In this document: positions 1 to 21,063 of the stretch, piece after piece
How the letters are laid out: every line of letters begins with the position of its first letter
Numbering within the stretch: position 1 is the stretch's first letter
Virus record (IMG/VR): IMGVR_UViG_3300020159_001925
Location: 1 to 22,359 of that record
DNA from: a virus
DNA length: 22,359 nucleotides
Strand: one strand, 5' to 3'
Made by a program: the position numbers and the translations under genes
The notes under the pieces: generated by a model
The model's input: only the letters and a program-made list of their open reading frames with translations
The model's database searches: none
What the model was told of the DNA's origin: nothing

Positions 1-3000
1 GGAGTAGCGAGACTATGGTTTCGCCTCTTCGTGAAGGGCGGCTCTCAAGATTCCTATTCCAGTTCTGGCCAAACGAAACTTCTTCCGTTGGTGCTGCAAG
101 TGTTTGAGCTGCAGACTCCGGCAACGATATCGGTGCCTGCGGCATGCCTTCGCTGAACCCATCTATCAGGGCTTTTTCTGCATCTGTAGCAATTGTCCAG
201 GCCATGTCTATCTCTTGCTGTGCGCCCTTCTTCTTTGCGCCAGGGTACTGAAGTATGGCAGGATTTGTGTTTCTATCAAACACAGAGTTGGTTTCCTTTG
301 AGACAGGGTACTCCGACTTCATTAGCCTTCTCTTTGTCGGGTCCATTCTGCCTACAAGATAGTCTGCAACCCTATCAATTTCAGACTTGTGCAACGTCCC
401 TCTAACCGTGTCTAGGCCAGATACTGAGTCTATAATATCTCCTACAGCGGCATACGGAAGGTTCATGTTCTGATTGTCCGGTGCCTTTTCAGATTTAACA
501 GTTGAGTAGTGCAGCTTTCTGGCTACAAAGATTTCAAAGTCAACGTAGTCTTGCATCAGTCTTGCCATTATATCCGTAGGTTCCGACTTGCCAATTTCGT
601 CAATGGCGCTATCCGGAACGTTGATGATCTTTTCCCTGACTGCCTTAGTCTCTTCAAGTAGTGGTACCTTTTCATCCGCGCCTGAGAGAATTCTCTTAAC
701 TGCAGTTACTGTGTCCTCCACATTGACGCCATCCATGGCCTGCTGCATCTTCCTGGCCATCTTGAGCGTGTGTCGCTTTACGTCATCATCGCTTATCTCA
801 ATTCCTATCTTGGCGTATCTTTCCTTAATTGAGTCGATAACAACAGCAATATGCCGAGCACTTGACGCAGGCCTTCTCCCTTCCCAAATTAGCTTGGCGT
901 AGTCAGGGGCTGCCTTGCCACTAATTTCCCTTCTCTCAGGAGAATCAGCTTGAAGTATATCGCCAAGCGTGTCCTTTGGCAGACCACCCTCTGTCTCTAG
1001 GTTTTGCTCCATCCTTCTATTCTTGTAGAATTCCGCATCTCCGTCGAACTGCTGCGCAACGCTTTCTCCTACCGCCTGGTCGCCAGAAAGTCCAAGACCC
1101 TCAAGTATTGGGGTGCCTGGCCTCTTTCCGTTTGCAACGACCTGGAACGCCCCGTCTCCGGTTAGTCTAGGCTTTGCCATAACCTGAACTAGCTCAGGAC
1201 GAGGTTTTACTGACAGCGAACTTCCGGATGCTTCTGCTGAGGCAAGGACAAGCTCCCTAAGAGCGCTTAGCCTTGGGTTCCTAAGCAGTGGGCTTTCTGG
1301 ATCAAGTGAAGGGTCAACAAGCACAGCTGGTACTTGCATTTTCTTATATATTGGCTTAGACAAATCGTCTTCTAGCTCGTAGGCAATAACTCCAAGTATT
1401 CTTTCTCCGCCCCTGCTTACTGCCCGTATCTCAGCACCTGGCCTCTGAGCTACTATATCGCCTTCCGGCTGGAACGTGGTTTCTTTCCTCTTCTTCTGAT
1501 ACCCTGTAAATACAGATACAGTTACCATTTGATTTGGCATAGGCTGGCCTGGCTGCAATGCTGCCGGAACGGCGGCGATGGTTGCCTTCGTTGCCTCGTC
1601 TGAGTAGTCGTTTACTTCCCAAATGCTTGTTGCATTTGACAGTCCCTTAACCCCGCCTGGCGATTCTACTCCGTACATAAGGTTGTCTGCAACGGTAAGT
1701 TTTGCAAATCCATTCATCTCGTGTTGGTTTTCAATTGCATCTGAAAGTGGACCAATTCCGCTTGCATTTGCAACTAATGAGTACGTCTCCAGATCTACTC
1801 GCCCAGTCTGCGCGTATACCTGCGAAAGTTCTGAGTTAACAACCGGTCGGTATGCTATCCATTCGGTTGGCATATCGGTAATCTCTATATCAAACTTTGC
1901 CTGGTCCGCAGCTGAGTACCCTGACACTTCGCTAAGGAACGCAACCCCAAACCGTGCTGGCCTTATTACGATCTCTACATCTGTAGGTTTTCCTGTTTCA
2001 GTATCAAACAGTGCTACGCTAATTGGTTCTGATAGAGACTTGTTCTCTATCAGTACAAGCTTTGTACCTTCCGGAAGATTCCGCATGTTGTGCGTCGTAA
2101 GCTGTGATGACAGCTTGGATACCCTGTCAAGGCCGTATGCGCCTACGGATCCGTAGTCACCTATATATGTCTTGTCGCCAGTTGCTTCGCGCATTACACC
2201 GCTAGCTTCCTCTCCCTTGTGCACAGGGAATAGCCACGGGTGTCGGTTCATAAACTGATTGAATCCGTCTCGCAGTTTAGGCTCTATGTCTGCTGGCGCA
2301 AAGTCAAGTCCTGGCCTGTAGTCTATTCTAGCAGACTTGTCCATCTGGTAATCCCCGCCAAGACCGTACGCATCAAGCCATTTCTGGGCTTCAGTAATAA
2401 ATCCGTTTTCGTCAAGCCATAGATCACGTATACCAGAACGTCTTCCGTTCTTGTCTACGTCTTCGTATGCAATGATTGCCCTGTAAATTCTGCTTATAGC
2501 TTTCTTAATCTCAGCATCTACTTCTCCAGACTCTGGGTTTAGCATTGCTGCGTCTGCTATATATTGCGCCCATGGAGTGCCCATGTTGCTGGCAAGCTCT
2601 GGTCCTGTCCTAAACTTTGGTATCAATTCTCCATCTTGAGTTTTAATATACTCAATTTCAATTGACCCGGTAAATGCTCTAAGGGCATCATTGTCTATCC
2701 CCTGCCAATAAGCCGACCCTTTTCTAATCGCATAGAACCTCTCGACGTGATCAACCGGCTTAATGTTGTCGTCCTCAAAGTAAGGGTTAAATCCTTCCCA
2801 CTTACCTTCCTCAAACACGTCAAGACTTTGTCGCATCGATGAGATCATGTAGTCAATCATGCCTGCGTATTGAGGGTTAGACTCAACAACTGAAGGGTTC
2901 CTGTTTAGGTACTCGTGCGTCGCCATTATTCTATCAAGCGCCCGCTGCCCTGCTGGTCCATACTCCTTCTGTCCCCTCGGCTCTCGAATCCCAAGACCAC

Positions 3001-5080
3001 CGCTTTGAATGATTGAACGCTGCATTGCGCCAACCATATCAGGATCAACTCCTGCCTTAATCAAGTTAGACTTAAGCTCTTTCCCTATCTTGGTGAATAG
3101 GCTCACAACAGCCGGAGGTGCGTTTCTTGGTGCCTGCCCCGCAAGCGCAAGGTATACAAGATACTTACCGCGAATTCTGTAGGCAAGCGTAAGGCGCTTT
3201 ACTGCCTGGTCGCGCTTTCCGATAGGGGCCCTCTTGTCCATGATATGCTTAAGGTTTGCCACAGTTCCGTCGTCAACCACACCTTTGACTGGGTCCTTAA
3301 TCTTAGACGCTTCTTTTATCAAGTTAAAGTACGCATTGATGAAGTGTGCGTCTATCCTGCTTCCTGAGTCTTCAATACCTGGGACCCGCACCCGTGCAGG
3401 CATCGCGGCAGATTCTATAGCCTCTGAGATAGGAGGGAGCTTCTCACCTTCGGGGGTCGCCGCCGTTGCTATTTTTTGAGTGGGTGCCGGGAGTGGTTCT
3501 GCAGTTTCCCCGGAAATGGCTGTAGGAGCCACGGAGACGGGCGTTTCCCCCTGGGGTGGTACCGGAAGGCCCCCCTGCTTTAAAGCGGGGCTCTTTGCTT
3601 GCTTAGCAGCAACCCTGGCCTTGGCGTCACTGATCATCTTCAGGTGCTTTTGTCGACCAGCTTCGTCCTCGTATCCTAGCGACTCTGGCGTCTCTCGAGA
3701 CATCAAGAGATCACGATCCTCGTATAGTCCTAGTTCAGGCGACTCTACTGAAACTGGACTTGTTGCGCTCTCCAGGGCAGAAAGCTCCTTGGTTAGGTCA
3801 AGCATGATCTTCTGGCGCTCTGGACCGGCTGGAAGCTTGAACGCGAACATCATGTCCTGCTGGATGTCTGCCGGCGTCCTAGATGGTACCTGGGCTGGAG
3901 CAGTCTTCGGGGCTGGCTTGGCGACGGCCTGTCCCGCAGGCTCTGCCGGAGGCTCTGTACCCGGGACAATAGTTGGGCCAGCAGGAGCTACATCTTTTGT
4001 TTGCCGCGTTTTGTACAGGCGCTCAATTGGTTGTGGGATGTTTACGTTTGGCACCGGACGGTCTGGGTGCATAAACGTGCGAGTGCTGCGCGCAAACGAC
4101 CTAGCGTTGTATCCCTCTGCCTTGGCTATATCCCTGATGTCTCGCGTGAAGACCTTGTTGTTGGCCATATCCCGCATTGCGACAAGCCCGTTGTCGCGGT
4201 CGAATGCAAGGATCTGGAATACTCCAGTTAGCCGTGCGTAGTGCGGGCTCTTTTCGCTACCAACGTTGATGATATCTCCAACCTTGGCGGATGGCATAGC
4301 GTTATACGCCCTGGTGGATTCAGTCCTTGTTCCTTTACGGATCTTCTGAAGGTTGCTGTCCTTGTCTCCAGGGATAATTGGATCTGGGTATCCGTTCTTT
4401 CCTGGGATACCGGTGTGCAGAAGGAGACCCCTGGACTCGTTCGGGTCAAAGGTACCACGCTCTACAGGCTCAAACTCGTAGTGCCAGATTGATCCAAGTG
4501 CAGGTATCTTGTCAAGCTTCTTTTGGGCAGGCTGTGCCTCGGGCGCCGCTGTTGCTGGTTTTTCTATGGCTGCAGGCTTTGGTGCCCCAGCTGCCGGAGC
4601 GGAGGGGGCGACAGCAGCTGGGGTCTTCTCTGGTAGCGGCGGTACGTCTTCTGGGATATCTGTTTCAAACGGCTGCATGTCCTCCGGAACAGGCGGAAGG
4701 TCTTCTGGCATACCGGCTGGGGCTGCTTCTGCTGGAGCCGCTGGCTTGGCCGCTGCTGGCTTGCCAGATTGAAGTTCCTTGACGTAGGCGTTGAGCGCCT
4801 TCTTGACCACGTCCTCTGGGAGCTTGGTCTCGAACATGATGGACTTGACAAGGTTGTCCTTCAAGCCTTCGTTCTTGGCTGCCACAGCGGTCATAATGTT
4901 GTTCTTCAGGCGCTCAAGGACGTCCTGGATGCTAGCCTTGCCAGCTATCACGCCCTTCCCTGGGACGAAGCGAGGCTGCTGCCCAATAGGTGCAGGGCCG
5001 GACTCACGCGCAATACCCTGAATGCGCTCGAGCTCAGCCTTCATCTTGTCGTTTAATGGATTTTTTGGATCTTCGGCCAC
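1..5080 (-). CDS. Giant phage protein, 3' end beyond window (at least 1693 aa)
   Basis: One open frame starts at a GTG at 5080, with GAGG six bases upstream, and stays open to the left edge, so the C-terminus is missing. I do not recognise a family. The N-terminal third is modular: a charged helical segment (about residues 1-100), a Pro/Ala/Glu-rich linker (about 105-175), a mixed segment starting near SIWHYEFEPVERGTF (about 195-350), a second Pro/Ala linker (about 373-400), a helical charged segment, and a third Pro-rich linker (about 490-535). After residue about 540 the protein is continuous and linker-poor, with globular-looking sequence rich in Asp, Tyr and Ile. No signal peptide or membrane span is seen. 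Base use changes near 3450: the 5' part is GC-rich, the rest AT-richer with many ATA codons. Possible roles are a virion-injected internal protein or a polyvalent-type effector. The sequence does not decide between them. Confidence 0.9.
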   Translation of the reverse strand, partial: MAEDPKNPLNDKMKAELERIQGIARESGPAPIGQQPRFVPGKGVIAGKASIQDVLERLKNNIMTAVAAKNEGLKDNLVKSIMFETKLPEDVVKKALNAYVKELQSGKPAAAKPAAPAEAAPAGMPEDLPPVPEDMQPFETDIPEDVPPLPEKTPAAVAPSAPAAGAPKPAAIEKPATAAPEAQPAQKKLDKIPALGSIWHYEFEPVERGTFDPNESRGLLLHTGIPGKNGYPDPIIPGDKDSNLQKIRKGTRTESTRAYNAMPSAKVGDIINVGSEKSPHYARLTGVFQILAFDRDNGLVAMRDMANNKVFTRDIRDIAKAEGYNARSFARSTRTFMHPDRPVPNVNIPQPIERLYKTRQTKDVAPAGPTIVPGTEPPAEPAGQAVAKPAPKTAPAQVPSRTPADIQQDMMFAFKLPAGPERQKIMLDLTKELSALESATSPVSVESPELGLYEDRDLLMSRETPESLGYEDEAGRQKHLKMISDAKARVAAKQAKSPALKQGGLPVPPQGETPVSVAPTAISGETAEPLPAPTQKIATAATPEGEKLPPISEAIESAAMPARVRVPGIEDSGSRIDAHFINAYFNLIKEASKIKDPVKGVVDDGTVANLKHIMDKRAPIGKRDQAVKRLTLAYRIRGKYLVYLALAGQAPRNAPPAVVSLFTKIGKELKSNLIKAGVDPDMVGAMQRSIIQSGGLGIREPRGQKEYGPAGQRALDRIMATHEYLNRNPSVVESNPQYAGMIDYMISSMRQSLDVFEEGKWEGFNPYFEDDNIKPVDHVERFYAIRKGSAYWQGIDNDALRAFTGSIEIEYIKTQDGELIPKFRTGPELASNMGTPWAQYIADAAMLNPESGEVDAEIKKAISRIYRAIIAYEDVDKNGRRSGIRDLWLDENGFITEAQKWLDAYGLGGDYQMDKSARIDYRPGLDFAPADIEPKLRDGFNQFMNRHPWLFPVHKGEEASGVMREATGDKTYIGDYGSVGAYGLDRVSKLSSQLTTHNMRNLPEGTKLVLIENKSLSEPISVALFDTETGKPTDVEIVIRPARFGVAFLSEVSGYSAADQAKFDIEITDMPTEWIAYRPVVNSELSQVYAQTGRVDLETYSLVANASGIGPLSDAIENQHEMNGFAKLTVADNLMYGVESPGGVKGLSNATSIWEVNDYSDEATKATIAAVPAALQPGQPMPNQMVTVSVFTGYQKKRKETTFQPEGDIVAQRPGAEIRAVSRGGERILGVIAYELEDDLSKPIYKKMQVPAVLVDPSLDPESPLLRNPRLSALRELVLASAEASGSSLSVKPRPELVQVMAKPRLTGDGAFQVVANGKRPGTPILEGLGLSGDQAVGESVAQQFDGDAEFYKNRRMEQNLETEGGLPKDTLGDILQADSPERREISGKAAPDYAKLIWEGRRPASSARHIAVVIDSIKERYAKIGIEISDDDVKRHTLKMARKMQQAMDGVNVEDTVTAVKRILSGADEKVPLLEETKAVREKIINVPDSAIDEIGKSEPTDIMARLMQDYVDFEIFVARKLHYSTVKSEKAPDNQNMNLPYAAVGDIIDSVSGLDTVRGTLHKSEIDRVADYLVGRMDPTKRRLMKSEYPVSKETNSVFDRNTNPAILQYPGAKKKGAQQEIDMAWTIATDAEKALIDGFSEGMPQAPISLPESAAQTLAAPTEEVSFGQNWNRNLESRPSRRGETIVSLL

Positions 5081-8230: not shown

Positions 8231-8681
8231 CGAACAGCTACTAGAAGCTCTGCGTGGAGCACTCAGTGAAGCAGGTGAGGCATCTGAACACGCACGCGAA
8301 GTAGCTCGTGAAGCAGGATGGGCAGAGCAAGCAGCCGATGACGCATACGGTGCCATTAATTCTATCATTGATGAGGTAGAAGAGTTTGCCGCTATCAATG
8401 TAGACCAGCACAAGGCTATCGTTAAACTTAGTTACAAAGTATCTAAGATTAGCGGATTCCTACATGGTCTGATTAATGACAGTGTAGGTGGCGATAGCCT
8501 TAGCGATAAGGAAGAGCGCAAACTAATGGATGTTGTTTCAATCTTGGACAGGCTGTTCAACTTTGACTATGATACCAAGGCAGTGCTTGGATTTAACGAG
8601 GAGTTCAATGTGGGATATGAGTATGGAACTGTTTCATACACAATCTCACCAGTAGTTAAGGAGGAAGCAAACAATGGCTAA
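8223..8681 (+). CDS. Hypothetical phage protein with Ala-rich helices (152 aa)
   Basis: The ATG at 8223 has AAGGAGG with good spacing. Residues 1-60 form a strongly helical Ala/Glu-rich segment (LLEALRGALSEAGEASEHA, EAGWAEQAADDAYGAINSI) with a possible coiled-coil heptad pattern. The C-terminal half is more globular (LDRLFNFDYDTKAVLGFNEE). It has no cysteine, signal or membrane span. The family is unknown. It overlaps both neighbours by eight bases, consistent with a coupled operon. Confidence 0.75.
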   Translation: MDSEQLLEALRGALSEAGEASEHAREVAREAGWAEQAADDAYGAINSIIDEVEEFAAINVDQHKAIVKLSYKVSKISGFLHGLINDSVGGDSLSDKEERKLMDVVSILDRLFNFDYDTKAVLGFNEEFNVGYEYGTVSYTISPVVKEEANNG

Positions 8682-9114
8682 CGCAAAGAAGGTATTCAAG
8701 GGTGGTACCCCTAAGGCCAAGGACTTGAAAGACTATGAGTCAATCATTAGTCTTGATGTCAATAGCATTGACAACTTCCATAGGGTGTTGTCATCTGCAG
8801 TTCCAGAGATTGGTAGGCAGATGGCTAAGAACAATGGTTGGAGTCCAGAAACACACATGAAGGTGTTGAGCATTGCAACCGGCCTTAGCTCAGCGCTTGA
8901 TGAAATTGGTGTGAACTCATACCATAAGCAGGCTAAAGAGTTTGCAGAGTACAACGGGTACGAGAGCAACTCATGGAATGCAATAGACAAGTGCGGCAAT
9001 CAAACCCGCAATGATTTCCAGGACTTGTACGATCAGCCGGAGTATGAAATCATCATCAGGTCTACGGCCAAGTTGAAGGATCGCAACGAACTCTCCAAGC
9101 GTGGCGTTAAGTAA
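8674..9114 (+). CDS. Hypothetical phage protein (146 aa)
   Basis: The ATG at 8674 follows AAGGAGG by nine bases. The N-terminus is short and basic (MANAKKVFKGGTPKAKDLK); the rest is a soluble helical protein including FHRVLSSAVPEIGRQMAK and YHKQAKEFAEYNGYESNSWN. One lone cysteine, no metal or catalytic motif, no membrane segment. Not recognised. Its stop overlaps the next small frame by one base (TAATG). Confidence 0.75.
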   Translation: MANAKKVFKGGTPKAKDLKDYESIISLDVNSIDNFHRVLSSAVPEIGRQMAKNNGWSPETHMKVLSIATGLSSALDEIGVNSYHKQAKEFAEYNGYESNSWNAIDKCGNQTRNDFQDLYDQPEYEIIIRSTAKLKDRNELSKRGVK

Positions 9115-9236
9115 TGTCGTGGTACAATGGCGACGGTAGAAGTAATATGGATAAAGACAACGAAGACTATATCTTTATTCTTATCATTCTATTCTTGCTG
9201 TTACCAGTGCTATCAATAGCACTTGCATCAGGTTAG
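9114..9236 (+). CDS. Mini membrane protein, C-terminal span (40 aa)
   Basis: The frame begins at the ATG overlapping the previous stop; an internal ATG at 9147 (MDKDNEDY) is an alternative start. A polar N-terminal half is followed by one hydrophobic span (YIFILIILFLLLPVLSIALA) that reaches almost to the stop, giving a tail-anchored topology. It is the third mini membrane protein of this operon. It ends 50 bases before the tRNA gene, with a hairpin in between. Function unknown. Confidence 0.6.
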   Translation: MSWYNGDGRSNMDKDNEDYIFILIILFLLLPVLSIALASG

Positions 9237-9248
9237 CGGGCGGATGCA

Positions 9249-9272
9249 GGGGGTGGGCAATTGCTCACCCCC
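9249..9272 (+). other. Hairpin ahead of the tRNA gene
   Basis: GGGGGTGGGC and GCTCACCCCC pair over ten positions (one G-U pair) around an AATT loop. It stands between the mini membrane gene and the tRNA. There is no T run, so it is more likely a processing or stabilising structure, or a weak terminator, than a standard intrinsic terminator. Confidence 0.5.
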
Positions 9273-9281
9273 ACATGCCCA

Positions 9282-9291
9282 GTATACGGGG
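9282..9291 (+). repeat. GTATACGGGG, variant of the GTATACGAGG repeat
   Basis: Nine of ten bases match the repeat at 5127, 5833 and 10963. Its last five bases are the start of the tRNA acceptor stem, so the match to the tRNA part may be chance. Confidence 0.35.
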
Positions 9292-9362
9292 CGTAGCTCA
9301 ACGGTTAGAGCACCGAGCTTATATCTCGGCGGTTCCTGGTTCGAATCCAGGCGCCCCGACCA
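9287..9362 (+). tRNA. tRNA-Ile (anticodon UAU), CCA encoded
   Basis: The full cloverleaf folds by eye: acceptor CGGGGCG/CGCCCCG (7 bp), D stem GCTC/GAGC, anticodon stem CCGAG/CTCGG with loop CTTATAT, a five-base variable loop, and T stem CCTGG/CCAGG with loop TTCGAAT. The discriminator is A and the gene encodes its own CCA. Loop position 34-36 reads TAT, which decodes AUA. Most bacteria read AUA with a CAU tRNA modified to lysidine, so a UAU tRNA is uncommon and needs no such modification. Phage genes here use ATA often, so it probably supplements a host poor in AUA decoding. Confidence 0.93.
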
Positions 9363-9377
9363 ACAGAAGGAGGTATC

Positions 9378-9569
9378 ATGTTTGATATGGATGAGTTCAT
9401 CAAGGACGCATCAGCAATAGGTATCAAGATTATAAACTTTGATTGCTTTGATTGCACAGAGTGTGGCAAGAGCTCAGGTGATTGGGAAGGTGGGGTTGAA
9501 CCTAACTGGAATCATTCATATTGTTCAGAGTGCTGGCCAAAGTATAAGCATCTACACGAGGAGGACTAA
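9378..9569 (+). CDS. Small Cys-rich, zinc-ribbon-like protein (63 aa)
   Basis: The ATG at 9378 has AGAAGGAGG directly after the tRNA CCA end. The protein contains CFDCTECGKS in the first half and HSYCSECWPKY in the second, giving two CxxC knuckles separated by about 24 residues, the layout of a small zinc ribbon. The N-terminus (MFDMDEFIKDASAIGIKI) is helical. It may be a DNA-, RNA- or protein-binding adaptor; the target cannot be told. Its stop lies one base before the next start. Confidence 0.75.
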   Translation: MFDMDEFIKDASAIGIKIINFDCFDCTECGKSSGDWEGGVEPNWNHSYCSECWPKYKHLHEED

Positions 9570-9570
9570 C

Positions 9571-9930
9571 ATGTGCGGTAAGTACAATGGATGGAACAAC
9601 TACGAGACATGGAATGCCATGCTATGGATCAACAATGTAGAAGGTGTATATGATGGCATCGTTGACGAGTTGGAAAACCAAATCAATCAGTTTGTTGACG
9701 AAGGTACATGGGATGAGGATGGATATCTGCAATACGCAGAGACATTCATTCAAGATTACTTCCAAGATACATTTATCTACCAGGGTTGTGACCCAGGTGA
9801 ATGGCATGAAAAGAACTACGGGCCAGTTAGCGACGGCATTGGAGCATACATCCAGACAGTAGACTGGCGTGAGATTGCTCAGTCAGTATGGGATGATAAG
9901 AAGCATGATTGGAGGTCAGAACGTGAGTGA
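9571..9930 (+). CDS. Hypothetical phage protein with NNYETW motif (119 aa)
   Basis: The start is the ATG at 9571, with GAGGAGG six bases upstream; the frame is open further upstream to 9439 but those starts lie inside the previous gene. The N-terminus, MCGKYNGWNNYETWNAMLWI, carries a W-x-N-Y-E-T-W pattern that I associate with a small family widespread in phages and of unknown function. The rest is acidic and aromatic (ETFIQDYFQDTFIYQG, then VDWREIAQSVWDD). No metal site or membrane span is seen. It overlaps the next gene by eight bases. Confidence 0.8.
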   Translation: MCGKYNGWNNYETWNAMLWINNVEGVYDGIVDELENQINQFVDEGTWDEDGYLQYAETFIQDYFQDTFIYQGCDPGEWHEKNYGPVSDGIGAYIQTVDWREIAQSVWDDKKHDWRSERE

Positions 9931-10978: not shown

Positions 10979-11248
10979 TTAATGAACCTGTTCTGACTTA
11001 TTGTTCCTATAGTTACGCTCAGCTCGTGGTTTACTTTTTGTTCTTTCTGGCGGGGCCGGTGTCGGTATGTTCCTGACCGACTCCACTCCGTGTTCTAGTA
11101 GGAACTGTCGTACAGTTTCGTGAGCATCAGCCCAGCCTGCATCGTACCCATCATCGTAAGTATTCTGTAGCATCTCAGCTACGTCTTGCATTGCGTGGTC
11201 GCAGATGGCAACCTTGCACTCGCAGTTAACCTTCAATATTTTTTGCAT
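10979..11248 (-). CDS. Small hypothetical protein (89 aa)
   Basis: The chosen start is the ATG at 11248 (MQKILKVNCECKVAICDHAM), just after the helicase stop, with a GGGGG tract upstream; the longer frame to 11326 lies inside the helicase gene. The N-terminal third holds three cysteines (CECKVAIC), the middle is acidic and aromatic (TYDDGYDAGWADAHETV) and the last 30 residues are basic and Pro/Arg-rich, probably disordered. No family is recognised. It is the last gene of the replication operon. Confidence 0.65.
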   Translation of the reverse strand: MQKILKVNCECKVAICDHAMQDVAEMLQNTYDDGYDAGWADAHETVRQFLLEHGVESVRNIPTPAPPERTKSKPRAERNYRNNKSEQVH

Positions 11249-11249
11249 G

Positions 11250-12548
11250 CTACCCCCTAAAGCTAGCTGTGGTCTTGATGAACTCGAGGTCGCATACCCC
11301 AGTCGCACCGTTGCGGTGCTTAGCAATCTTGCAGCTCACCACTTCGGTGGCGGCAAGGAAGTCTGGATCTGTCTTGCGCCATAGCATTAGCACAAGGTCA
11401 GCATCCTGCTCGATAGCGCCTGAGTCACGTAGGTCTGAGAGCCTGGGCTCACCACTCTCACGGTACTCAGACATGCGGCTCTGCTGCGACAGCGCAATGA
11501 CCGGCACATCTAGCTCACGTGCCAGGGCCTTGAGGCCACGGCTAATCTCCGACACCTCGTTAACCCTATTGGAATCCTTGCTGCTCCTGTCCGGTGACAT
11601 CAGCTGCAAGTAGTCAACGATGATGAGGTCGATACCCTGATCGGCCACTAGCTTGCGGCACTTGCTGCGCACCATAGATGGCGATGCAGTAGGTGAATCA
11701 TCCACGTAAATCCCAAGCTTGGCAACACGCTGTGCTGCCTGGTCTAGCTCGACGATCTGGATCATGTCCAACCCGCCGTGCCGGATAGCCTGGAGTGGCG
11801 TGCTGCTAGAGTACGACAACAGTCTTGCACCAACCTGCTCAGCGCTCATCTCGATGGAGAAGATAGCAACCTTCTTGCCAACGGATGCTGCGTTGTATGC
11901 CATCGTCGTAGCCAGTGCTGTCTTGCCCACGCTTGGGCGAGCGGCGAGGATTACGAGGTCAGACTTCTGCCAGCCACCAGTCACGGCATCGATCTGGCTG
12001 ATGCCACTTGGCACACCAATCCTTGCACCTGACGTAGCGATGGTGTTGATCCTGCCCTGTGTTATTCGCATTAGGTCGCTTGCAGACGACCACCTTGCTC
12101 CACGCTTCTTATTCCCAACCTGGAACAACACGCGCTCAGCCTCATCGATTGCAGCTAGCACGTCGTTCTGCTCAGACTGAGCGACCTCGACGATGCGTGC
12201 GCCGGCCTTAGCCAGGCCACGTAGCACAGCCATGCGCTCAACTATCTCGAAATAGCTAGCCGCATTTACTGAGGTAGGTGTGTCGGTCGTAAGGTCTGAT
12301 AGGTACGTCAATCCACCAATGTCCTCAACGTGACCTGCTGCCTGCAGCTGATCGCTAACAGTCACCACATCGACGGCTTGATTGGATATGTGCACCTGTC
12401 TTACGGCATCTGCAACCAAAGAGTTGCGCCGGTCCCAGAACATAGACGGGTCTAGCTCGATGTCGTTAAGTATATCCTGATCTATCAGGATTGATCCCAA
12501 TAGGGACCTCTCAGCCTGTGTGTTACTCGGCATCGTCGTCGTCTTCAA
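11250..12548 (-). CDS. dnaB: Replicative DNA helicase, DnaB family (432 aa)
   Basis: A hexameric ATP-driven helicase that unwinds the replication fork. The N-terminal helical domain (AERSLLGSILIDQDIL near residue 12) is typical of DnaB. The RecA-like domain has Walker A RPSVGKT (204-210), the SIEMS motif (231-235), Walker B IIVDYLQLM (about 310), and DLRDSGAIEQDAD with a following arginine-containing stretch. Its length is near the usual 440-470. The start is a TTG at 12548 with AGGAGG six bases upstream; the next ATG, at 12533, has no suitable site. It overlaps the small Cys protein upstream by 26 bases. No separate primase or helicase loader is seen in the window, so these lie elsewhere or come from the host. 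Confidence 0.96.
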   Translation of the reverse strand: MKTTTMPSNTQAERSLLGSILIDQDILNDIELDPSMFWDRRNSLVADAVRQVHISNQAVDVVTVSDQLQAAGHVEDIGGLTYLSDLTTDTPTSVNAASYFEIVERMAVLRGLAKAGARIVEVAQSEQNDVLAAIDEAERVLFQVGNKKRGARWSSASDLMRITQGRINTIATSGARIGVPSGISQIDAVTGGWQKSDLVILAARPSVGKTALATTMAYNAASVGKKVAIFSIEMSAEQVGARLLSYSSSTPLQAIRHGGLDMIQIVELDQAAQRVAKLGIYVDDSPTASPSMVRSKCRKLVADQGIDLIIVDYLQLMSPDRSSKDSNRVNEVSEISRGLKALARELDVPVIALSQQSRMSEYRESGEPRLSDLRDSGAIEQDADLVLMLWRKTDPDFLAATEVVSCKIAKHRNGATGVCDLEFIKTTASFRG

Positions 12549-18344: not shown

Positions 18345-18568
18345 CACTTACCTCCATTCGAAAGTAACTCGATTACTTTCGTTACCAGGGTAATCAGCGA
18401 ACCAATTAGGGACGCAATGATTCCCAGCCGCCACTTTACATCTATCCCTTCATCCTGTCTAGTCTTCCGCACAGCTTTGTTTCCAGCCTGGTACAGCTCG
18501 ACCTCTCGCAGGCGCTCGTCTATAGCGTCTAGCCTAGATAGGAGGATTTCGAACTGACCCCGGGTCAT
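18344..18568 (-). CDS. Holin-like single-span membrane protein (74 aa)
   Basis: The ATG at 18568 has GGAGG five bases upstream and overlaps the tail gene's stop (ATGA). An N-terminal amphipathic coiled-coil-like helix (FEILLSRLDAIDERLREVEL) and a basic linker (KAVRKTRQDEGIDVK) lead to one hydrophobic span (about residues 47-66, LGIIASLIGSLITLVTKVIE), ending in LLSNGGK. This resembles XhlA-type phage holins or hemolysins. It follows the tail genes and precedes a cysteine peptidase, as lysis genes do. Only one span is visible, so it might be an accessory holin or antiholin. Confidence 0.65.
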   Translation of the reverse strand: MTRGQFEILLSRLDAIDERLREVELYQAGNKAVRKTRQDEGIDVKWRLGIIASLIGSLITLVTKVIELLSNGGK

Positions 18569-21063
18569 CGTCCCCTCCTAGTGAGATTATTGTTAGGATT
18601 AATCCCTACAGGACGTACGGCTCCTGGCTTTCCTGATGGGTACTTTGCCATGTAGAGTGCATGGATGTATGCTCCCCCCCTACCTGGCTGGAGATTTAGA
18701 TTTGGATTAGCCATCGGATCAGTTGGAGTATCCTTCTTACCATTACCAGGGGCTTTCGCTGGTGCAGGATTCCTGGTAGGCTTAGTCTGTTCTGGCTTTG
18801 GGGTGCTAGGAGTTGCGCCCCATGAAACGGCTGGTCCCTTGAACTTGCTTGGCTTAGCCAGGTCTAGCCTAAGGTCCTCATGCCCATCGATACGAGCGTG
18901 CCACTCCATACCTCCAACGTTGTACAGGCCAGAAACCTCGTCAACACCAACTCCAACAGCCTTTCGGCGCACCACAACGCGAACAGTCTCCCCAAGCTTT
19001 GGGGTACCTGCTACACCGATAGGGCCATAGAGCTCTGTCCTCATCTGGATAGAGATAGACCTAACGTCATCGTCCTGGCCAAGGTCATTTACTAGCCCCT
19101 GTGCAAAGTTGCCTGCCGACTGCGACGATAGGAATCCAGACTGAGATTGAACAATCGGCAAGGATGGATCGCTAACATTATATTGAGAAAGCTTAACAAC
19201 TCCTTGGCTCTTAGTGCCTGAGGCGGCCTCGGTACTTGCTCCAATAAGGAAGTCGGTAGTAGGTACGACTCGAACTGAGTTTACCTTGCTGCTAAGCTTG
19301 GATGTGACGTTGAATCCCTTGATGTTTCCTGGGTACACAAGTACTGCCTGTGCGTCTGCCGAGACAGCATGGTTTACAATCAGGCTACTACCAGTTGCCG
19401 ATGCACCTGGTACACCGTAGTAGTTAAACACCACCTTAGTACCGTCCATCCTAGATCCCATCTCGATATCAGCAAGATCACGGATGAAGTCCACTGGTCC
19501 TTGTCCTGCTGTTGTATATGGATGTTTTACTGAACTTGATGAAGTATTTAGTTGAGTAAGGGTTGTGAATTTAACAAGAGGAACAAGAGCAGTATTAGTT
19601 TTATTTAGAGTACCACCTGTACTAAAGCCGGAGGAAGCGGTACCAGCAGCTGTAAAAATAGTCTTCCTGTCACCAGAGATACTAGTAATGGCACCACTTG
19701 TGTCAGTGCTTGCGCCAGAGACGAGGGTGCTAGATGCTCCAGTAACAGTATCTCCAACAATATAGTTTTCTGGCAGCGGGTTAGACATGGTAACAGTTTT
19801 TACGGAAGACGCCATGCTTGTGTCCGTAACAGACTCAGAAGAAACAGGGTAGTCGTTTGCCCTGTCAAGTACATATTGAGGGTCTGTTGGTGTCGCAAGC
19901 AATGCGGTTATTGCGCCAGGCACTGTGTCGGTCTGTAGCCCAGCTGTGAATGTAGTGTCAAGCTCAGACGTAGCATTCCCCCATATTGCCTGGTTATAAT
20001 CAGAGCCGGTAACAGGACTTAGGTTTCCGATATAGTATGGGATTGCGTAAAACTCATAGCTAACCCCTTCTGTTAGGATTGAAAATACACGCTCTCTCCC
20101 TGTGTGGTCTTCGTCTGCTGGGTCGTAGTGGTTAGATGGCCTTAGGGTAATAGTGAATGGCATCGGTGCATCAAGTCCTCCTAATGCTGAATAGTATCCA
20201 CCGATCTCACTATTGCCTGGAGCAAAGTAATGATCAGTTGAGAAGTCAAGCAGAGCACCACCAGGCTGTGCGTACAAAAGTAGACCAATCCACCCTTTGG
20301 ATGAGGAACTAGTTCCAATGGAGAAGTTGCCTTCGATAGTCTTTCCTGTCTCACCATCTTGAAAGTATGCTGCAGTTACGTCACGCCATATGTACTGGCA
20401 CCCCTGAATGATAACAGCACCGGTCTTCTTTCCGCTCCCATCTTCTTGGTATGTAATCTTTAGCTTGTCCTTGTTCCCCCATGTATTTCCTGCAGTTCCA
20501 GGCTGTACATTGTCAGGTACTCCGTCATAGATTTCTATCTTTCCCACGTTAGGGTATACGGAATCAACAACTGGTACCCAATACCCCTCGCTTTTCTTAC
20601 CCAAATCTTTGGCAGACGCCCCGGCGATAACTGATTTTGGAGTAAATCCGTTTCCTCCTGCACTGATAGACGTGGTATCAGAACTTGGGATAGCCTTGTC
20701 GCCAATCTTAGGGCCATGGATCTGAGTGTAGTACTTGTTTAGAGCGGTCATGTAGTCCACCCCATTGACTACGATCTCGCTTACTCCTGCGTCATAGTCT
20801 GTAATGATACCGGACTGGATGTCTACGTACTGGCTTCCATCCCATCGCTGCACTGAGTAGTGCTGCTGTAGAGGCTGGATAAGTGGCGCTGCCGGATGGT
20901 CAATAGGTAGAGTGAAGTATGCGTACCCAGAGTCGTTAGCATACAGCTGAACACCGATGTCTCTAGCGTCCGGGATAACTGCTACCACCAGATCTTTTGC
21001 AAAAGGGGCAGCGTCGTTATAGGGCTTCATAGAGTAGATTACAACAATGTTCTTACGTGCCAT
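18565..21063 (-). CDS. Large tail protein, baseplate-hub / tail-tip type (832 aa)
   Basis: The ATG at 21063 overlaps the distal-tail-like gene's stop (TAATG). The N-terminal region (about 30-130: SGYAYFTLPIDHP, then QRWDGSQYVDIQSGIITDYD and NGVDYMTALNKYY) has the pattern of hub proteins in long-tailed phages of Gram-positive hosts, such as the Gp37-like proteins of Rhodococcus phage ReqiPepy6. A beta-rich middle follows, with a Ser/Thr/Ala/Gly-rich low-complexity stretch at about residues 415-500, and a C-terminal part with GPIGVAGTPKLGETVRVVVR and YNVGGMEWHARIDGHEDLRL, typical of the folding-back end of hub proteins. The last 100 residues are Pro/Lys/Asn-rich and probably flexible. It likely contacts the receptor or baseplate. 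Exact role is inferred. Confidence 0.82.
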   Translation of the reverse strand: MARKNIVVIYSMKPYNDAAPFAKDLVVAVIPDARDIGVQLYANDSGYAYFTLPIDHPAAPLIQPLQQHYSVQRWDGSQYVDIQSGIITDYDAGVSEIVVNGVDYMTALNKYYTQIHGPKIGDKAIPSSDTTSISAGGNGFTPKSVIAGASAKDLGKKSEGYWVPVVDSVYPNVGKIEIYDGVPDNVQPGTAGNTWGNKDKLKITYQEDGSGKKTGAVIIQGCQYIWRDVTAAYFQDGETGKTIEGNFSIGTSSSSKGWIGLLLYAQPGGALLDFSTDHYFAPGNSEIGGYYSALGGLDAPMPFTITLRPSNHYDPADEDHTGRERVFSILTEGVSYEFYAIPYYIGNLSPVTGSDYNQAIWGNATSELDTTFTAGLQTDTVPGAITALLATPTDPQYVLDRANDYPVSSESVTDTSMASSVKTVTMSNPLPENYIVGDTVTGASSTLVSGASTDTSGAITSISGDRKTIFTAAGTASSGFSTGGTLNKTNTALVPLVKFTTLTQLNTSSSSVKHPYTTAGQGPVDFIRDLADIEMGSRMDGTKVVFNYYGVPGASATGSSLIVNHAVSADAQAVLVYPGNIKGFNVTSKLSSKVNSVRVVPTTDFLIGASTEAASGTKSQGVVKLSQYNVSDPSLPIVQSQSGFLSSQSAGNFAQGLVNDLGQDDDVRSISIQMRTELYGPIGVAGTPKLGETVRVVVRRKAVGVGVDEVSGLYNVGGMEWHARIDGHEDLRLDLAKPSKFKGPAVSWGATPSTPKPEQTKPTRNPAPAKAPGNGKKDTPTDPMANPNLNLQPGRGGAYIHALYMAKYPSGKPGAVRPVGINPNNNLTRRGR

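Follow-up and report, generated by a model that had tools for sequence, protein, structure and literature searches.

Among related phages, carriage of a tRNA-Ile with the anticodon UAU coincides with a codon-specific increase of ATA, and we consider it likely that this phage tRNA supplies AUA decoding and thereby relaxes selection against AUA. Codon supply is the best-supported account of our data, and evasion of a host defence is not needed here.

A tRNA-Ile(UAU) gene in a tailed-phage fragment

The window, i.e., the whole stretch of DNA analyzed, is a 22,359-base IMG/VR virus record (IMGVR_UViG_3300020159_001925); the virus infects bacteria and was sampled from the environment. Genes were taken throughout as mechanical open reading frames (ORFs; minimum 90 aa, longest first). 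The window encodes a DnaB-like helicase, a Dit tail protein, a Cas4-like exonuclease, an Erf-like annealing protein, and a polymerase exonuclease subunit, and the presence of these genes identifies it as a fragment of a tailed phage. Megablast of the window against 50,697 phage records gave no near DNA match, and tblastn searches of the phage records with two window ORFs and with the terminase, portal, and Cas4-like proteins likewise found nothing. The helicase had 1583 matches in the phage records, every one below 60% identity, and a helicase scan of genome contigs gave, among the 80 loci listed, only cellular or distant helicases (best identity 41%). Two relatives, G009 and G013, have 123-base direct terminal repeats and measure about 42.5–43 kb each; a complete genome of the helicase family is therefore probably about as long, and the window would cover roughly half of one. 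ORF 12904–13344 matches the Pfam family DPBB_1 (lytic transglycolase; E 7.1e-8). The features used below are as follows:

2–5080, minus strand: long truncated ORF (1693 aa) with a relative in G001; ATA 37/106
8674–9114, plus strand: ORF (146 aa) flanking the tRNA gene upstream; marker of the insertion site in relatives; no Pfam match
9236–9280, plus strand: G+C-rich hairpin shortly before the tRNA gene (−28.3 kcal/mol, z −3.5)
9287–9362, plus strand: tRNA-Ile(UAU) gene with a full cloverleaf, supported by ARAGORN, Rfam, fold, and covariation
9320–9322, plus strand: anticodon TAT inside the loop CTTATAT (9318–9324)
9359, plus strand: discriminator A, read from the sequence
9360–9362, plus strand: encoded CCA, read from the sequence
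9378–9569, plus strand: small ORF (63 aa) directly downstream of the tRNA gene in the window
9571–9930, plus strand: downstream flanking ORF (119 aa) that matches DUF7249; also the following gene at this position in relatives
11250–12548, minus strand: DnaB-like replicative helicase, basis of the family tree; ATA 5/30

ARAGORN called a single tRNA in the window, a tRNA-Ile with the anticodon tat at 9287–9362 on the plus strand. Rfam likewise gave a single match in the window, the tRNA model (RF00005) at 9287–9359, which scored 71.1 bits where the gathering cut-off is 29 (E 5.4e-14). At minimum energy, the RNA folds into a full cloverleaf (−32.7 kcal/mol, z −2.7). These results, together with the sequence itself, confirm the preliminary description, which had read a tRNA-Ile with UAU anticodon and encoded CCA at this position. 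The anticodon is UAU and not the CAU that defines the tRNA-Ile2 of the TilS pathway.

Related records and the insertion site

Related IMG/VR contigs were gathered by scans with the helicase and neighbouring genes. The Rfam tRNA model matched in 9 of 31 related records, for which ARAGORN reported tRNA-Ile(UAU) in seven, tRNA-Arg(UCU) in G013, and a doubtful CAU tRNA in G029, a distant relative that was set apart. A tRNA pattern scan returned 71 stretches, and nine further family records (G106–G114) were added, chosen for their many family proteins when the ATA values of these loci had already been seen; two family matches, L357 (4.5 kb, ATA 0.295) and L370 (1.3 kb), were left out of the whole-record counts. 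The helicase tree comprises 42 rows, 31 of them with a known tRNA state (17 carriers and 14 without the tRNA). The comparison of 17 with 14 is restricted to records in which the flanking genes can be seen or whose length is 38 kb or more, and near copies occur among the carriers (G001/G003/G107 and G005/G110). The minus sets of the first codon comparison and of the comparison of residues opposite ATA also include fragments of undecided tRNA state (G002 and G006, for example, stop short of the site).

The eight family tRNAs (seven distinct, the window's included) are paired in 147/147 cells, have compensatory changes on both sides in 10/21 pairs, and share the invariant loop CTTATAT. Full pairing, compensatory changes, and the constant loop lie far above chance and do not fit random decay, and by this comparison the tRNA-Ile(UAU) appears intact and under selection. 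As CTTATAT was fixed in the scan pattern, the 71 stretches are uninformative on loop conservation.

In the window and in G001, G003, G004, and G005, the tRNA gene sits after the hairpin region that follows the 146-aa gene and before the next gene. In G007, which lacks the tRNA and whose 203-aa neighbour is 91% identical to that of the window, the hairpin region directly abuts the ribosome-binding region of the next gene, i.e., the site is empty. G015 and G031 show the same gap without the tRNA, which is located elsewhere in these records. The empty site and the displaced genes together indicate that the tRNA gene was gained, lost, or moved more than once. A G+C-rich hairpin of varying sequence, or in tRNA-less relatives a hairpin-like stretch, follows the 146-aa gene in tRNA-carrying and tRNA-less records alike (G001, G003, G005, G007, G009, G013, G015, and G031). 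Reading it as an intrinsic terminator is unsupported by eye, since no T run follows the hairpin in the window; it is possibly an RNA-processing or attenuation element.

ATA use with and without the tRNA

The share of isoleucine codons written as ATA was 16.5–38% in the 17 carriers and 3.7–14.4% in the 14 records without the tRNA (pooled 1316/5715 versus 441/7358). Comparison of mean codon use revealed ATA as the lone strong outlier (0.223 versus 0.071, log2 1.64); the next codon, AAA, reached 0.45. In the first set of records, carriers had 17–38% ATA and the close tRNA-less relatives G009, G012, and G013 had 4–5% at similar GC and GC3. At aligned orthologous sites, ATA was higher in the carrier in 63/63 record pairs, which are not independent of one another, and the summed counts were 897 ATA in carriers versus 189 in records with the flanking genes in view. 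Measured against the expectation pooled from A-ending codons, ATA reached 0.42–1.02 in the first eight carriers, 0.12–0.13 in the near relatives G006, G009, G012, and G013, and 0.04–0.58 in other records without a seen tRNA, the highest value being that of G018. On the helicase tree, an ATA share of at least 0.15, a cut-off chosen after the values had been seen, coincides with the tRNA in 31/31 rows of known state. Each trait (tRNA and ATA level) changes three times on this tree, giving three independent pairs that all point in the same direction; a sign test on three pairs cannot go below p 0.25.

Within the window, 80/390 isoleucine codons of 28 chosen ORFs are ATA, 37/106 in ORF 2–5080 and 43/284 elsewhere. 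The earlier statement that the window's genes use ATA commonly thus holds on average, but the use is uneven, with 37 of the 80 codons in that one ORF. Low ATA use, which the preliminary description had named beforehand as speaking against its reading, did not occur. Compared with the empty-site relative G007 at matched sites, the window shows a modest excess (27/208 versus 18/199). Window proteins are in places 82–99% identical to those of G007, G006, and G009, and several of the genes nearest to tRNA-less phages have few ATA codons; ORF 18565–21063, for example, is 86–87% identical to G006 and G007 and has only 4/47. Set against the ATA-rich ORF 2–5080, we read these genes as the result of recombination, which would make the window a mosaic with sequence from tRNA-less kin.

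A parallel case is found in the wider family, where seven records carry tRNA-Arg(UCU) instead of tRNA-Ile(UAU) (G013, G056, G067, G072, G074, G087, and G098; in G013, contig L015, at 11140–11215). AGA use was 0.172–0.187 in three tRNA-Arg(UCU) records of 36 kb or more versus 0.064–0.137 in seven records of 38 kb or more that lack this tRNA (exact p 0.017, uncorrected for relatedness). tRNA-Arg(UCU) and AGA are a second codon–tRNA pair in the same wider family.

The major head protein avoids ATA

The contrast was also seen gene by gene. ATA counts in carriers versus other records, which include some of undecided tRNA state, were 17/58 versus 5/232 for the terminase, 22/92 versus 5/349 for the portal, 32/85 versus 13/196 for Dit, and 42/243 versus 12/653 for the helicase. 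The 337-aa protein, identified as the PHROG major head protein (E 3.3e-47), behaves differently from these: ATA accounts for 1/88 in six carriers and 0/268 in fifteen other records. In four carriers the count was 1/60, against 17.9 predicted from the remaining late genes of these records. The major head protein is presumably the most heavily made protein, and some bacteria are described in an excerpt of PMC12514573 as having no AUA in highly expressed genes. As the head protein is nearly free of ATA despite the tRNA, the tRNA seems to make AUA tolerable rather than favoured.

These data also bear on a host shift, in which the tRNA-carrying lineages would infect other hosts that use AUA freely, with the tRNA as a by-product. 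ATA use would then track the host. Such a shift should move several codons, however, and only ATA moved strongly, with all others at a log2 of at most 0.45. The head protein still avoids ATA, and the protein identities of 82–99% shared in places with G007, G006, and G009 suggest gene exchange in overlapping hosts. We regard a host shift as unlikely.

Similar tRNAs in phages with little ATA

tRNA-Ile(UAU) genes also occur outside the helicase family. The window's tRNA differs at 3/76 bases from those of L330, L335, L351, and L381, and is further from that of its helicase relative G001 (87% identity). That it is nearer to these outside phages than to G001 suggests movement of the tRNA between phage families. 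ATA is scarcely used in L330, L335, L351, L381, and L340. Among such outside phages, whose tRNAs are near-identical or similar and which include the four at 3/76 differences, the ATA share was 0.030 in G115, 0.032 in G117, 0.054 in G116, 0.072 in G121, and 0.085 in G120, which suggests a recent arrival of the tRNA or another role. Four further contigs with tRNA-Ile(UAU), L319, L345, L372, and L385, are read as isolate genomes from their IMG numbers; three of the tRNAs lack an encoded CCA, and BLAST of L345 matched no phage record.

One such role is evasion of defence, in which the phage tRNA would replace a host AUA reader cleaved by an anticodon nuclease or depleted by another tRNA-targeting defence, the UAU loop itself staying uncut. 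A role of this kind for phage tRNAs is proposed in the part of PMC10264068 consulted, and the low-ATA phages G115, G116, G117, G120, and G121 are left unexplained by codon supply. However, evasion does not predict a codon-specific ATA rise in the tRNA-carrying lineages, and phages that avoid AUA would lose little from a missing AUA tRNA. We consider this explanation very unlikely for the helicase family. Of the first interpretation, which had offered codon supply and defence evasion side by side, it is the codon-supply half that is borne out, by the covariation of the tRNA, by the reading of AUA as isoleucine (see below), and by the rise of ATA with the tRNA among related phages.

High ATA without a tRNA in view

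Two records combine high ATA use with no tRNA in the fragment at hand. G049 (L228 and L408), a terminase relative, has an ATA share of 0.268 and no tRNA in its 17.7-kb fragment; at matched sites it has 82/281 ATA versus 0/246 in G012. G018 has 0.169 and no tRNA in 7.8 kb. Because its helicase is identical to that of the tRNA carrier G111, the tRNA of G018 probably lies just beyond the fragment end. For G049, the codon-supply model predicts a tRNA-Ile(UAU) in the remainder of the genome. Both records could be taken to favour the reversed order of events, in which mutation bias raised AUA first and the tRNA was gained later to compensate, the more so as the order is unreadable from present sequences. 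Against this, GC and GC3 of carriers and tRNA-less records overlap, other A-ending codons rise little, G018 probably has its tRNA nearby, and the outside-family phages G115–G117, with the tRNA and low ATA, hint that the tRNA comes first. The reversed order thus appears more doubtful still than defence evasion.

AUA remains isoleucine

Aligned relatives most often have isoleucine opposite the ATA codons of carriers (I 0.52, V 0.17, L 0.12, M 0.03; 2531 pair-counted cells). This pattern is like that of ATT (I 0.53, V 0.15, L 0.14, M 0.02) and ATC, whereas M reaches 0.46 opposite ATG; in these alignments AUA reads as isoleucine in the carriers. We therefore reject reassignment of AUA to methionine or another residue by this tRNA as virtually excluded. 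ATG counts at matched sites, inspected for a fall of methionine codons through misreading of AUG, differed weakly (1980 versus 2239, record-level p 0.074).

A model of codon supply and its relation to known systems

In most bacteria there is no UAU tRNA, and AUA is read by a lysidine-modified CAU tRNA, as stated in an excerpt of PMC8007984, in agreement with the background given in the preliminary description. The UAU anticodon would pair with AUA without lysidine, and the anticodon implies that the phage tRNA may bypass TilS. In the model that we favour, the starting point is the intact tRNA under selection that the sequence shows inserted between two genes of the rightward gene cluster. The host may read AUA poorly, which fits the low ATA of the tRNA-less relatives, whose avoidance would be greatest in late structural genes. 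Once the tRNA is gained, selection against AUA would relax and AUA would build up across large parts of the genome, a causal step suggested by the observed association; the most extreme record reaches just the level expected from other A-ending codons. Relaxation would be incomplete, in keeping with a head protein nearly free of AUA, and the spread of AUA may in turn make the tRNA hard to lose.

The model would also require a host IleRS able to charge a UAU tRNA, or a modification of U34. According to the accessible portion of PMC4810244, the IleRS of Mycoplasma mobile charges unmodified tRNA-Ile(UAU) and that of E. coli does not do so efficiently; given the latter, the phage tRNA would need a permissive IleRS or modified U34. 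UAU tRNAs without modification do occur and seldom misread AUG, as an excerpt of PMC5485724 reports.

The codon-compensation hypothesis for phage tRNAs is cited to Bailly-Bechet et al. 2007 in the consulted part of PMC10264068, and it is established that phage tRNAs serve codons rare in the host. Our case is alike in that AUA use rises with a tRNA that reads AUA and the codon is enriched in carriers over kin without the tRNA; judging by the tRNA-less relatives, AUA would also be rarer in the host than in the phage. Codon-compensation studies compare phage with host, whereas here related phages with and without the tRNA are compared at matched sites. Prophages of Latilactobacillus curvatus likewise combine isoleucine tRNAs with high ATA (ten tRNA-Ile, one of them UAU; ATA 15.7% in phages versus 4.3% in hosts); in the excerpted account of PMC10688831, however, these tRNAs are mostly CAU and reliant on host TilS, and a comparison with tRNA-less sisters is not part of that account. 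The cellular tRNA-Ile(UAU) of M. mobile and Lactobacillus plantarum, as far as the excerpts describe them, share the anticodon and the direct reading of AUA without lysidine, but the window's is a phage gene. M. mobile lacks tilS and its IleRS charges the unmodified tRNA, according to the same excerpts. Like the bacterial tRNA-Ile2(CAU)/TilS system, the phage tRNA reads AUA as isoleucine; the bacterial tRNA needs lysidine in its CAU anticodon, and the phage tRNA carries U34. In the open-access PMC papers searched, we found no report of the helicase family or of AUA use compared with and without a tRNA.

A more speculative and rather doubtful extension is that AUA is a phage-owned codon, which the host reads badly, in which late genes become rich, and which makes late-gene expression dependent on the phage tRNA, near-identical tRNAs being passed between different phages in the same waters. 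If so, the tRNA would be locked in place, AUA-rich genes would be a poor prize for tRNA-less rivals in co-infection or recombination, and the host IleRS would have to accept a UAU anticodon that is unmodified or modified in another way.

What tRNAs do for the phages that carry them is a matter of debate. The present case is known in kind, as codon compensation, and what it adds is unusually clean comparative evidence: one codon, one tRNA, and genomes with and without it allow a before-and-after comparison in which one insertion site is empty and the major head protein serves as an internal control. The comparison raises the question of which host IleRS charges the UAU tRNA; it supports codon supply as a role of this phage tRNA and shows the limit of that supply.
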